Shown here piece by piece: positions 44,946-49,176 of a stretch of DNA of 64,000 nt. Position numbers and translations under genes: made by a program. Source of the DNA: Bryum argenteum (Eukaryota > Streptophyta > Bryopsida > Bryales > Bryaceae); contig CM073326.1 of NCBI GenBank assembly GCA_037043015.1, forward strand, positions 9,990,345-10,054,344, in the 5' to 3' direction. Position 1 is the first letter of the stretch. The number at the start of each line of letters is the position of its first letter. The notes under the pieces are model-generated. The model made no database searches. It was not told where the DNA came from and was given only the letters and a program-made list of their open reading frames with translations.

Positions 44946-47498
44946 CTAACGATGGCGCCTATCACTAGAAGATGCTCCACTCCTACGATCCATGCGCTCC
45001 AATGCTCTACTGATCGCTGAATCCGTAGCCACGAGCTGGGGGTTGTCATGACGCTGCTGCTGCAAGAACCGCTGAATGGGCCGCATCCGGAGGTTGCCAA
45101 ACTCATTTATCATGGTGAGATGTGCACCAATGATAAAGTGAGTCAAGCACATAGCCTCCAAAACTCGGTTAACCCGAGTACACTGGTACTGAAGCTTGAG
45201 AGTTAGCCAAAACTCTGGGTGATCAACTGTATGGGGTATAACTCCATCATTGCGAACGTCCACATCCATCCATACTCCAAAATCAATGCACCATTTTGCA
45301 AGGATTTTGCAAAACACAGCAGCTCTGTAACATACTGGATCCTGGCAATGTTGGTGTTGAGCCCAAAACGCTGAATAGGAATCGTAACACTCCTGAGGAG
45401 TTCTCTTCAGTCCCGGAATCAAAGGCCAGTTGTACTCAATGGAGTTGAGAGTAGCACTGGGATTCCATCTGTTCCTCCTTGGACAGTTACAAAATCGAGG
45501 ATCTTCCCTCACAGCTACTGGTGGGCTTCGAGTCCAATACTGCGACTCCTGTCTATAGACGATATCGGCGGGGGTGAGCTCCACTCGGGATTGACCATAG
45601 TCTTGGAGGATCCATGCAATTGCCTCCCATGTTGGTATGGGCTGCTCACCGGCGTGATTGAACAAGGCCTCATAATTTCCCTGATACGCAGGCAAGCTGT
45701 GGGGCGGAGAATTCGGAGCAGGAGGATGAATGTCTTCCTGGACTATAGTCTGTTGCTGCTGCAGTTCGAATTGCAATTCGGAGATGGTCTGTTGCTCCGC
45801 TGCCAATTGTCGTTGAGCCACCTCGACTTGCCGTTGGCTCTTCTGTAGTTCACCCCTCAGCCGCTGAAGTTCGCCGGTGGCATCCGGAACCCTAATCGGT
45901 GCCTGGCTGTCCTCAATCTGGCGTTGCAGCCCCGCAATCACGCGGCGGGCTTCACCGAGGTCGCTACGCAGCTCGTCTATAGTCTCTTGCTGATGCCGAT
46001 TGTCCACAAGCTGACGCTGAGTATTTGCGAGGTCTGCTTGAAGTTGGTCTATGGTCCTCTGCAACTCCCGATTGACCTCCTCCAACTGAGGTTGCAAGAC
46101 TATAGTCTGTGATGGATTGCGTTGCTGAGCCTGGGCCAGCTCAACCTCGAGCCGGGCTATAGTCTGCTGTTGACTGCGATACTTCTCCAACAGAGCGGTG
46201 TGGTCTATCTTCTGATGGCTCAGCTTCTCTTTTAATCCGTGGAGGGCCTCCACCGCATCCTGCTTCTCTTGCCGTACTCCCCCAACCTCGTTCCTCAACT
46301 GCTCGATCATCGCCCTGTTGCTTGTCTTTTCACTCTGTAGCTCATTCTCCCATCGTGCTACCTGCGATTGCAGGGTTTTTATCAAACTCTGCTGTTCTTC
46401 GTGGAGTCTTGCTGTCCTGGCTCGAGCCTCATCTAACATTTCGTCCTTCCGCTGGGCTGCCTTTGTCATTCCATCACGCACAACCTCGTTGTCGACTATA
46501 GTCTTTCTCAGGCCAGCAATCCTCTGTTGCTGCGCACTTATCATCTCCGCTTGCTGATCAGCTTGGGCAAGAATGTCCTGGAGTCTATCTTCCAACTCGG
46601 TCACCTTCAAAGCCTCAGTGGCAACCCTGTTTTCAAGCTCCTCCCTCTCCTGATCGGTTAGCCTGGCCTCCTGAGGTATGGCTCTCTTCTTCTTCGATGG
46701 TTGCTTTGCTGGCTCTGCACGCATGACTATAGGCTCGGTGACAGCGCGCTGCCGTTTGGGTGCCGGCTGGTCCCTGCTGCTACCTCCCAGGCTGGTGGAA
46801 ACTGGTGCTGGTGGTGGATGCCTCAAGGCTTCTGTGCACATCATGCTGAGATACACTTGAAATATGTGATTCTGAGGCAGTGTGCCAGGTTTTGCCCAGA
46901 TCAAGCGTTTCATCCCTTCTTCAATCACCTTGGTCCAATCCAGTCGAGCACCTCCCCATGCTGCTACCGCCATACGGGTGAGTTCGGGTCTCATGGCAAT
47001 CGGATTTTCTTCAAATGCAAACATGGTGTTGATGAAGATTAACCAATCTTGCCAAGGCTGGACAGCTTCTTCTATGCACCAGGCGCTCCCATCATATGAG
47101 GAGAAACCTCTCGTGAAGATGACCTTTGCTTCATCTCGAGTCATCTGTTTGATCATGCTGGCTTGCATTCCTCCTTCAGGTCCCGGAATGTGCAACGCTC
47201 TGCTGATAACCTCGGATGTGATCAGCACAGGGCGTCCTTCGATCGAGCCGCTCAGCCTCCCTCGATTGACTATAGTCATGATGAACGGCAGCAGATAACT
47301 CTCATTCGGCCATGGTCTTGAACTCCCTTCTTCAATGAAAGTCCATAGTCCTGCTCTCCTCAAATTCTCCATGTTATGCCGCCATAAGGTGGTCCCCTTG
47401 ACTTCTTTCGGCATAACCGTCTTCTTGCCCTTGTCAGCACCGTCTATAGTCTTGGCCGTTTCGGTGATGGTTAAGGCTGGCCCTGCTCGATTCTTCAT
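44946..47498 (-). CDS. Extra ORF of the Ty3-type element: coiled-coil protein, 850 aa
   Basis: An intact sense-strand ORF lies between integrase and the 3' LTR. Residues about 20-240 form a globular domain (LRRAGLWTFIEEG, SYLLPFIMTIVNRGRLSG, VLITSEVISRALHIPGP, AAWGGARLDW) reminiscent of the putative plant-transposon domain found in ORFs of some plant Ty3 elements. A basic linker with KRQR and KKKR follows and could be a nuclear signal. Residues about 280-600 are a long Gln/Glu/Leu-rich coiled coil with recurring TI--L units. The C-terminal about 200 residues are Trp/Cys/Tyr-rich (WNPSATLNSIEYNWPLIPGL; FCKILAKWCIDFGVWMDVD) and end in an Arg/Ser tail. The ATG at 47498 is chosen; a GTG precedes it directly. 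Function is unknown. The palindrome GACTATAGTC occurs repeatedly within it, often encoding TIV or TID. Confidence 0.8.
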   Translation of the reverse strand: MKNRAGPALTITETAKTIDGADKGKKTVMPKEVKGTTLWRHNMENLRRAGLWTFIEEGSSRPWPNESYLLPFIMTIVNRGRLSGSIEGRPVLITSEVISRALHIPGPEGGMQASMIKQMTRDEAKVIFTRGFSSYDGSAWCIEEAVQPWQDWLIFINTMFAFEENPIAMRPELTRMAVAAWGGARLDWTKVIEEGMKRLIWAKPGTLPQNHIFQVYLSMMCTEALRHPPPAPVSTSLGGSSRDQPAPKRQRAVTEPIVMRAEPAKQPSKKKRAIPQEARLTDQEREELENRVATEALKVTELEDRLQDILAQADQQAEMISAQQQRIAGLRKTIVDNEVVRDGMTKAAQRKDEMLDEARARTARLHEEQQSLIKTLQSQVARWENELQSEKTSNRAMIEQLRNEVGGVRQEKQDAVEALHGLKEKLSHQKIDHTALLEKYRSQQQTIARLEVELAQAQQRNPSQTIVLQPQLEEVNRELQRTIDQLQADLANTQRQLVDNRHQQETIDELRSDLGEARRVIAGLQRQIEDSQAPIRVPDATGELQRLRGELQKSQRQVEVAQRQLAAEQQTISELQFELQQQQTIVQEDIHPPAPNSPPHSLPAYQGNYEALFNHAGEQPIPTWEAIAWILQDYGQSRVELTPADIVYRQESQYWTRSPPVAVREDPRFCNCPRRNRWNPSATLNSIEYNWPLIPGLKRTPQECYDSYSAFWAQHQHCQDPVCYRAAVFCKILAKWCIDFGVWMDVDVRNDGVIPHTVDHPEFWLTLKLQYQCTRVNRVLEAMCLTHFIIGAHLTMINEFGNLRMRPIQRFLQQQRHDNPQLVATDSAISRALERMDRRSGASSSDRRHR

Positions 47499-49176
47499 CA
47501 CAGACTATAGTCAGCTTTGTGAATCTCAACTGGTATTTTTTTCATCATTTTTTTTCATTCCTTCACATGTTCAGGCTATAGTCTCTGGTTACTCCCCTTA
47601 ATCCGGTAGGTGCTCATGTTACAATTATCTTCTTGATGACAACAAATTCCAGTTTTTAATTTTCATCATCCGTTTCAGAATTCTTCCTTGTTGTTAACTA
47701 ATTCGGATCATACCAGAGGTGCAGGTGGTGGTGTTGGGGCAGCCGATGGTGGTGCTGACTTTGCCGGTGTTGTGGGTGGATTCACCCCTTTCTTCACTTT
47801 TGGCGGCATCTTGTCTGGTTATCTCAATCCGGACTATGGTCTCTCCTTTGCGATTCTTCCGATCTGCTCGTGATTCGACTATAGTCTTTTAGCATCATGC
47901 AGATCCAGCAAGGAAGTCAGGAGCAAGCTTGTTTGTCTATAGTCTTTTCATTTTATTGGTGTACTTTAATCTCCAATTCCTCCCAGCAGATCATATGTAC
48001 AGACTATAGCCTTGCATTGATCTTAATCTATATACGAGGTTCGTTGCAAGTCTGGCTTTTCCATGCTTATGTGTATCATCCTTGAAAGAGAAGTAAATCG
48101 TCCAAATATTGGTTTGATACATACTTAGCTTATTCGGGATCTTGGTGCAGGTCTGTTGAGTCCTCTCTTTCAGCCGCTTCTGTTTGTCTTCAGGCTGCCT
48201 GGATTGACCGACAATTCTAGACTATAGTCTCTTTTTTTTTTCGAAATTGCTTCTGCACGTGATCACCAGCAGGTTTGAATGAAGATTACATCATCAAAGT
48301 CAGCAGAGCTTGACTATAGTCTTATCTTCTTGATATTCATTTTGCACAGGTTCCTTCTTGATTTCTGCTTATTTTCGGTTCTCATAATTTTTCCTTCACA
48401 TATCCAATTCGTTTCGGACCTCACAGGAACGACTATAGTCATTGATCTGGCCTGTCTTCTGACTATGGACTGATTGTTATGCTCTACTTCTGTTGATAAC
48501 CCTCACCAGCGTTTTTAACGGTGAGACCTCGTATCCGTTGCGACCTAATTCTGCTTCACCACTCAGGTTCCTTTACTTCCTTAATTGCAACTCTGATTTC
48601 CTTCATCGTTTTCCATATATCATGTTGCTTTTAGGTTAACAATCTTCAGAACGTTCATGATCGGGTTTGAAAGCAAAGAGAGTTTCTGTCTTACAAACTG
48701 AATTTCTTCAACTGGTGTAGAACCTGATGCTCCTGCTCTTGGCCGTTTGTTGCATGCTCCCTTCTGCAGCTTCGATAGCTCGATCCCTTCCACCAGACTA
48801 TAGTCTTCCTCGTTTTCACTTCTGCGACCACGTCTTGGCTGAGTTCTCGTCACCCCTGATCAGCTTGCCCGAAGTGGCTCTGTGTACCACAATCCTGACT
48901 ATAGTCTTTTTACTCACTCATTTGCCCTTGGTTATGGCAGAAGCTCTCTCTCTCCACTGATTCTCACTCACCACGTCTCAATGCTCGAAGGAAACGAACT
49001 TGTGAAAACAGAAAATGGAAGAAGGTGGAGCTGCTGGTTGCAAGAAGTGCCATAACCGCCTGCAACTGCTTTCCCATGGTGTCTCCTCACCAGACAGACT
49101 ATAGTCATTTCACTAATGCCATGACTACTCATGATGGCCATGCAGATTCGTCATCCATTTTTTTAAGACTATAGTC
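45551..49176. repeat. Array of the 10-bp palindrome GACTATAGTC
   Basis: Exact copies start at 45741, 46098, 46494, 47268, 47503, 47877, 48220, 48312, 48431, 48796, 48897, 49097 and 49167. Near copies start at 45551, 45593, 45975, 46155, 46725, 47341, 47442, 47574, 47832, 47935, 48002 and 48461. Spacing is irregular (70-800 bp). Chance expectation is far below one exact copy in 3.6 kb. Copies span both the 850-codon ORF and the non-coding spacer upstream of it. In the LTRs and gag-pol I noticed only partial matches (for example TCCATAGTCT near 53,047). Confidence 0.9.

Follow-up and report, generated by a model that had tools for sequence, protein, structure and literature searches.

A clade-specific, directional array of short words in a Ty3/gypsy retrotransposon lineage of Bryum argenteum, with the element's own ORF2 product as its candidate reader

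In Arabidopsis, the VANDAL elements, which are Mutator-like transposons, carry dense short motifs that differ between related element families and are read by a fast-evolving, element-encoded protein, the motif being YAGTATTAY for VANC21 and AGTTGTCC/AC for VANC6 (PMC5735166, PMC10398659; these and the other papers cited here are used in excerpt). In Drosophila, the gypsy insulator, which lies inside a Ty3/gypsy element, is a cluster of about 12 Su(Hw) sites flanked by AT-rich sequence (PMC2374998). Athila/Tat elements have 3' additional open reading frames (3'aORFs; Transposase_32, PF20167), for which similarity to PF20167 is reported in sunflower Athila and whose origin and functions are called unknown for the Athila type (PMC11728184). 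Here we analyse a window of 64,000 nucleotides from Bryum argenteum (assembly GCA_037043015.1, contig CM073326.1, positions 9,990,345 to 10,054,344, forward strand), which contains a Ty3/gypsy long terminal repeat (LTR) retrotransposon. Like VANDAL elements, it carries a dense array of a short motif that differs between related elements and, like Athila/Tat elements, it has an additional ORF in sense orientation, ORF2, between pol and the 3' LTR. This is almost certainly a selected recognition array. We favour the reading, with a probability of roughly 50%, that it is a clade-specific directional array acting in cis, most likely read by the element's own ORF2 product on integrated DNA.

The 10-mer GACTATAGTC occurs in 13 exact copies in the window, all within 45741-49176. 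At ≤1 mismatch there are 22 sites, all within 45593-49176 and none in the rest of the 64 kb, while at ≤2 mismatches there are 26 within 45400-49300 and 22 in the remainder. In 1000 dinucleotide shuffles of 45551-49176, exact GACTATAGTC had a mean of 0.001 and a maximum of 1. Tandem Repeats Finder returned no row in this interval, so the array is not tandem and lacks the three or more tandem copies of the Retand type. The sites are confined to the non-coding spacer and ORF2, i.e., between integrase and the 3' LTR; no site at ≤1 mismatch is found in the window's LTRs, pol, or integrase ORF. A preliminary description of this DNA had proposed a dense, non-tandem array inside a young retrotransposon, and both points are borne out, a young insertion being indicated by LTRs that differ at only 1 of 970 bases.

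The array is also present in other copies in the same genome. Family copies were found by DNA and protein searches, and their numbers are lower bounds. Of 33 merged stretches examined, four are without an ORF2 match, and in two of them integrase has no match either; C1:38632482 was not counted among copies with both, its integrase match (27%) being spurious. The array is found in every one of the 16 fetched copies that match both ORF2 and integrase: each has 10-31 sites at ≤1 mismatch, whereas the reversed word occurs 0-2 times and a second control word 0-3 times. Eight other partial stretches have 2-23 sites at the same threshold, and six stretches matching the 3' end of ORF2 only, some together with an LTR (C4:1946000, C1:3770000, C1:9542014, C1:38009000, C1:38632482, and C2:19799000), have 0-1, most of the array region being absent from them as fetched. 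Across the whole genome (258.8 Mb), exact GACTATAGTC has 360 matches vs. 138 for the reversed control word; among the first 50 matches listed (32.4 Mb of contig C1), 35 lie in family copies and 15 are isolated. Neither of the two outcomes named in the preliminary description as refuting it was obtained: other family members carry the array, and the word is not equally frequent genome-wide.

The positions of the sites differ between these copies. Most of the spacer cannot be aligned between diverged copies and the window, yet sites are present there: those outside aligned blocks number 8 of 13 in the copy on C10, 11 of 17 on C7, 14 of 17 at C1:15427554, 13 of 13 at C1:19618673, and 5 of 5 on C9. 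As for ORF2, sites homologous to window sites amount to 2/9, 3/8, and 2/7 in the diverged copies on C9, C10, and C7, to 6/9 at C2:3771018 and 3/3 at C1:19618673, and to 8/10 and 9/9 in two close copies. Since positions are partly non-homologous between copies, sites turn over while their density is kept. At C10:5192486-5199910, C7:10755603-10763208, and C1:32350500-32354500, additional sequence separates the LTR match from the end of ORF2 and itself bears GACTATAGTC sites.

That selection acts on the arrays is well supported. When five close copies were aligned, the difference rate in the spacer was 4.2% for motif columns, against 10.8% in the 20 bases on either side and 8.2% in the remaining spacer, the corresponding values in ORF2 being 1.6%, 10.3%, and 7.4%; the test takes columns with a site in at least one copy and is thus somewhat biased toward conservation. 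Core CTATAG density is 4.74/kb in the spacer and 3.27/kb in ORF2, vs. 0.25/kb in the fetched part of pol (11 representative copies). The sites are also spaced, none of 187 gaps between them being under 20 bases (9% expected) and only eight being under 40 (18.5% expected), with no clear helical phasing (R at 10.5 bp 0.12 vs. ~0.07 random). An array spread without selection, through tandem-repeat expansion or insertion of a mini-sequence, has some precedent: Retand elements commonly have tandem repeats between pol and the 3' LTR (PMC11963269), as does the distant relative L061, and in the close copy on C4 a replaced block brings an extra site. This origin is nevertheless highly improbable, being already contradicted by the conservation test, in which motif columns are conserved above their flanks; moreover, the array contains no tandem repeat, the flanks show no extended similarity beyond a few A's, and many sites change through point substitution inside aligned flanks.

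The evidence supports a constraint on the nucleic acid, as the preliminary description had argued, rather than a protein repeat. Besides spacer conservation and persistence at partly non-homologous positions, the codon pair ACT-ATA encodes 65 of 112 Thr-Ile dipeptides over 12 copies, whereas codon usage in the remainder of those ORFs (ACT in 143/473 Thr, ATA in 92/406 Ile) predicts ~7%. The claim of a single codon phase stands for most sites (8 of 9 window ORF2 sites at ≤1 mismatch; 55/8/2 of 65 in the 12 copies), but it is not absolute, and one of the three phases would place an in-frame TAG inside the motif. Such phasing, together with the location of many ORF2 sites in the coiled coil, is what would be seen if the motif were a by-product of coiled-coil heptads (T-I-V/D, E-L), and CGARTTG, the word of a sister clade described below, is likewise in one frame for 13 of 18 sites in ORF2 of L058. 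This is the least probable of the explanations considered, and the spacer sites already contradict it: the majority of sites are non-coding (13/22 in the window; 136/204 in 11 representative copies) and conserved above their flanks. In addition, codon choice is skewed beyond usage, and GTCNANTNGAC, the word of another sister clade, uses all three frames in ORF2 of L060 (5/9/4).

The preliminary description had also proposed dyad symmetry. The core is indeed a dyad, but the site is not functionally palindromic: it is directional, and runs along the sense strand of the element, which is the minus strand of the window, in coding and non-coding DNA alike. Half-sites around CTATAG, scored as sense GA left-only vs. 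TC right-only in the 11 representative copies, number 37:2 in ORF2 and 35:7 in the spacer. The upstream side is A-rich beyond base composition (50/52 and 98/111, vs. baselines of 0.69 and 0.72), giving a working sense-strand consensus of A-rich, GACTATAG, T/A/C, C; the idea that the A-tract compensates for a degenerate right half is not supported (p 0.21). Among 19 related copies, position 9 is often changed (to A or C) but its mirror, position 2, only rarely (48:1 and 23:3). RNA-RNA pairing of the palindromes, as in dimer linkage, was rejected because pairing would treat the two positions alike.

Because direction is constant, the main rival to a reader on DNA is one on RNA, whereby the sense transcript would be recognized by the Gag nucleocapsid, ORF2, or a host RNA-binding protein in packaging, export, or translation. 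One direction relative to the transcript in both coding and non-coding parts is what this predicts, as are variants at position 9 over position 2 of 29:2 and 24:2, the A-rich 5' flank that survives base-composition correction, and LTRs devoid of sites in the window. The sites are also predicted to be more open in sense than in antisense RNA (4.4 vs. 5.2 kcal/mol, p 1e-5), although the A-rich sense strand may explain this, and in predicted sense RNA the sites are not more open than they are with shuffled flanks (103/204 lower, p 0.16). In contrast, the dyad core in two of the three clade motifs is readily understood if double-stranded DNA is recognized, and less easily for single-stranded RNA, and pol, although also transcribed, is free of sites in the window. 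We consider an RNA-level array unlikely, while ranking it ahead of the other alternatives.

Relatives of the element carry other words. A protein search with ORF2 identified relatives with a C-terminal region 34-48% identical, many of which sit in elements whose integrase is 77-79% or ~70% identical to that of the window. Five sister stretches were fetched: L056, L057, and L060, which form a second clade, and L058 and L059, which form a third. Integrase identity to the window's is 77% for L057 and L060, 71% for L058, and 70% for L059; no integrase match is listed near L056, which was grouped with L060 by its ORF2 (68% over 707 residues). The second clade bears a degenerate dyad, GTCNANTNGAC, with 35 copies in L060, 14 in L057, and 10 in L056 (shuffle maxima 1). 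The third bears CGARTTG, with 23 sense copies in L058 and 20 in L059, vs. two and three antisense (shuffle maxima 4 and 3). Both words are found in coding and non-coding parts, GTCNANTNGAC having 17 non-coding copies in L060 and four in L057 (shuffle maxima 1) and CGARTTG seven in 977 non-coding bases of L058 (shuffle mean 0.23, maximum 3).

The words are not shared between clades. All 16 window-clade copies have 0 GTCNANTNGAC and 0-3 sense CGARTTG, 0-3 being the range of sense CGARTTG outside the third clade in general; both third-clade copies have 0 GTCNANTNGAC; and GACTATAG occurs 1, 0, and 1 times in the second-clade stretches and not at all in the two of the third. A dyad core is clear in two of the three motifs (GAC..GTC and GTC..GAC). 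Genome-wide, GTCAAATNGAC has 1058 matches vs. 209 reversed and GTCGANTNGAC has 1827 vs. 1036. Among the matches listed, clusters lie beside further ORF2 relatives, such as C1:11038084-11041724, where 10 of 12 GTCAAATNGAC sites are in the ORF direction, and C1:2922509-2925762, with 11 sites over the GTCAAATNGAC and GTCGANTNGAC searches; there are many isolated copies too among those listed at the start of C1. Tight groups of three to four GTCAAATNGAC sites per ~110 bases (C1:6143603-6143712, C1:10997508-10997617, and C1:11046192-11046301) might be LTRs or solo LTRs of second-clade elements. The more distant L061 (C10:13556900-13560350, 1-3451; integrase 52%) has tandem repeats of 19, 41, and 55 bases in the region separating pol from the LTR and no dispersed words, and no ORF2-like frame was seen in the 3.45 kb fetched.

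These clade differences bear on whether a host DNA-binding protein of activator or insulator type is recruited, with a different factor for each clade. The gypsy insulator, with 12 clustered Su(Hw) sites and AT-rich flanks, is a precedent (PMC2374998), and the motif is constant across ORF2 proteins that are <50% identical. Against a host factor, three clades of one lineage have three unrelated words, which is easier to account for by a fast-evolving, element-encoded reader, and outside family copies the motif seems to be at background level, the first 50 matches listed (32.4 Mb) including 15 isolated ones, compared with 138 matches of the reversed word in 258.8 Mb. We rank this explanation third and regard it as improbable.

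An element-encoded reader, already suggested in the preliminary description, has indirect support, in that the motif differs between related elements whose ORF2 proteins are themselves related. We give ORF2 an even chance of being the reader. It consists of an N-terminal Transposase_32-like region (~40-230), a coiled coil (~280-590), and a conserved Cys-rich C-terminal region (~605-840) with invariant Cys and His. The N-terminal model has fair to high confidence, with blocks of 73-93 in predicted local distance difference test score. The window's ORF2 does not reach the PF20167 cut-off and has no match to this family; its relative P0002 is also below the cut-off (E 3.8e-4), while third-clade ORF2 proteins (L058 and three others of eight matches) are above it. 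N-terminal parts align from window to L060 (E 1e-12) and from L060 to L058 (E 5e-10), and on this sequence similarity the N-terminal region would belong with Transposase_32. Neither DUF1985 nor DUF287 is among the Pfam matches at E≤5 of the six ORF2 proteins scanned out of 14 related ones, HMMER filters dropping weak matches.

Several observations weigh against recognition of the array by ORF2 on DNA. The constant direction relative to the transcript suits an RNA-level role at least equally well. The window-clade motif is unchanged across ORF2 proteins down to ~40% identity, so a conserved host factor could read it. AlphaFold models of ORF2 and of its C-terminal part are weak and have no PDB match at E≤0.001, and consequently no DNA-binding domain was identified. 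One copy with a near-complete ORF2 (residues 24-851, C1:12314057) has only three sites at ≤1 mismatch, and two with ORF2 residues 385-850 (C3:24909500 and C3:25174116) have two each; copies of the same clade are related, so that counts per copy are not independent. In the second clade, direction is weaker, 26:9 when scored as purine-left-only vs. pyrimidine-right-only (12:4 non-coding, 14:5 in ORF2). The third clade consists of two copies that, at 93% identity, represent a single lineage, and CGARTTG in ORF2 is partly the coiled-coil codon pair Glu-Leu.

Taken with these reservations, a self-recognition system is suggested by words that change with ORF2 between clades, that are dense by selection and spaced, and that in the window clade are concentrated in the element. 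We infer that a protein binds the array, that the binder is ORF2, that its target is DNA rather than RNA, and that the effect is anti-silencing or activating. In this model, a lineage of Ty3/gypsy retrotransposons would keep, over the region from pol to the 3' LTR, a cis-acting array of one short word per clade, GACTATAGTC here and GTCNANTNGAC and CGARTTG in two sister clades. The ORF2 product of each element would read its word on integrated DNA at many sites at once, its long coiled coil possibly serving multimerisation, and binding would mark the element and its own clade only. Marking might then lead to escape from silencing or activation of the element's own transcription, as with VANC on VANDAL; a chromatin or anti-silencing role is the more tentative part of this proposal.

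The element as a whole has the hallmarks of Ty3/gypsy retrotransposons, namely an LTR pair with TG..CA ends, a 5-bp target-site duplication (GTAGG), and the order gag, reverse transcriptase, RNase H, and integrase. On the minus strand, its parts follow one another as gag, zinc knuckle, reverse transcriptase, RNase H, integrase, spacer, ORF2, polypurine tract, and 3' LTR (Table 1). The primer binding site may be of the tRNA-Asp type. In the window copy only, an in-frame TGA at 50630-50632 ends the gag-pol ORF and separates gag, reverse transcriptase, and RNase H from integrase; the position is a sense codon in 16 of 17 aligned copies, the window's being among the 17.

Table 1. Coordinates of the element, its parts, and the motif sites in the window
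Feature	Position	Strand	Basis or remark
Whole Ty3/gypsy LTR retrotransposon, 13.4 kb	43913..57270	-	LTR pair by self-BLAST; termini; 5-bp target-site duplication GTAGG on both sides
3' LTR	43913..44882	-	99.9% identical to 5' LTR
Polypurine tract AGAGGAGAGGGC	44883..44896	-	Read from sequence; precedes 3' LTR
ORF2, extra ORF, 851 codons, proposed trans-acting factor	44946..47501	-	ORF reading, domain and model analysis
Non-coding spacer, integrase to ORF2, 2.1 kb	47502..49645	-	13/22 sites with ≤1 mismatch
Integrase ORF	49646..50596	-	Pfam rve; zero motif sites
gag-pol ORF: gag, zinc knuckle, reverse transcriptase, RNase H	50630..55291	-	Pfam
Primer binding site region TGGCGCCGCTGCCC	56271..56300	-	Read from sequence; complementary to tRNA 3' end
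5' LTR	56301..57270	-	Self-BLAST, termini
Array of oriented motif (sense: A-rich, GACTATAG, T/A/C, C)	45593..49176	-	13 exact and 9 one-mismatch sites
One-mismatch site	45593..45602	-	
Exact site	45741..45750	-	
Exact site	46098..46107	-	
Exact site	46494..46503	-	
Exact site	47268..47277	-	
Exact site, directly upstream of ORF2 start	47503..47512	-	Exact in 4/5 close copies (window included); fifth without the stretch
Exact site	47877..47886	-	
Exact site	48220..48229	-	
Exact site	48312..48321	-	
Exact site	48431..48440	-	
Exact site	48796..48805	-	
Exact site	48897..48906	-	Exact in 5/5 close copies (window included) despite differing flanks
Exact site	49097..49106	-	
Exact site	49167..49176	-	
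Remaining one-mismatch sites	Starts: 45975, 46155, 46725, 47442, 47574, 47832, 47935, 48002	-	

Other features were seen in passing. The alternative word CCGGGGATAAC, the top word in two family stretches, was dropped, as it belongs to another, nested element with inverted pairs. Inverted GTTATCCCCGG/CCGGGGATAAC pairs, often in steps of 43-49 bases, occur in a repeat at C1:9579500-9580200 (L054) and C1:975553-976481, and may represent the subterminal repeats of a DNA transposon; genome-wide, CCGGGGATAAC matches 884 times vs. 114 for the reversed word. Elsewhere in the window, a 358-residue ORF (15516-16592) has a weak match to DUF3504 (E 4.8e-5, below cut-off), a domain that marks Crypton-type elements, tandem repeats of 18-24 bases form degenerate arrays at 32717-33439, and a tRNA gene lies at 14755-14826 on the + strand (Rfam, 58.2 bits).

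How does this lineage compare with described systems? A literature search over titles and abstract openings found no prior description of an LTR retrotransposon with a dispersed, directional array of words specific to its clade, and the four papers in which GACTATAGTC occurs are unrelated, judging by title. The Retand region between pol and the 3' LTR has tandem arrays and an antisense TRP28 ORF, whereas here there are dispersed words of 7-11 bp and a sense ORF. The gypsy insulator occupies 340 bp in the 5' untranslated region, as opposed to 3.6 kb over ORF2 and spacer here, and has a host-encoded reader; the excerpted text mentions no clade-specific words (PMC2374998). As for the PF20167 domain of Athila/Tat elements, its cut-off is passed by sister-clade ORF2 proteins and not by the window's own; no motif array is described for 3'aORFs in the excerpted account (PMC11728184). 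The findings bear on the means by which LTR retrotransposons whose extra ORFs have no known function withstand silencing. Should the arrays be read by ORF2, it would become possible to test directly what Transposase_32-type additional ORFs do, the three matched protein/word pairs of this genome would serve as internal specificity controls, and new sequence-specific readers for words of 7-11 bp would be at hand.

VANC/VANDAL is the closest parallel, ORF2 being the proposed equivalent of VANC. The likeness is at the level of sequence, binding and demethylation belonging to VANC. The carrier here is an LTR retrotransposon, whereas VANDAL is a DNA transposon; VANDAL motifs lie in non-coding tandem repeats, whereas here single sites are dispersed, extend into coding DNA, and mostly point in one direction; and VANC has DUF1985/DUF287, which has no match among the six ORF2 proteins scanned. 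It is plausible, though we hold it slightly short of even, that LTR retrotransposons independently evolved VANC-like self-recognition, in which word and reader diverge together and each clade marks only itself, be it for anti-silencing, activation, or selective packaging. Provided that ORF2 is the reader, the system described here would be a variant of the VANC type.

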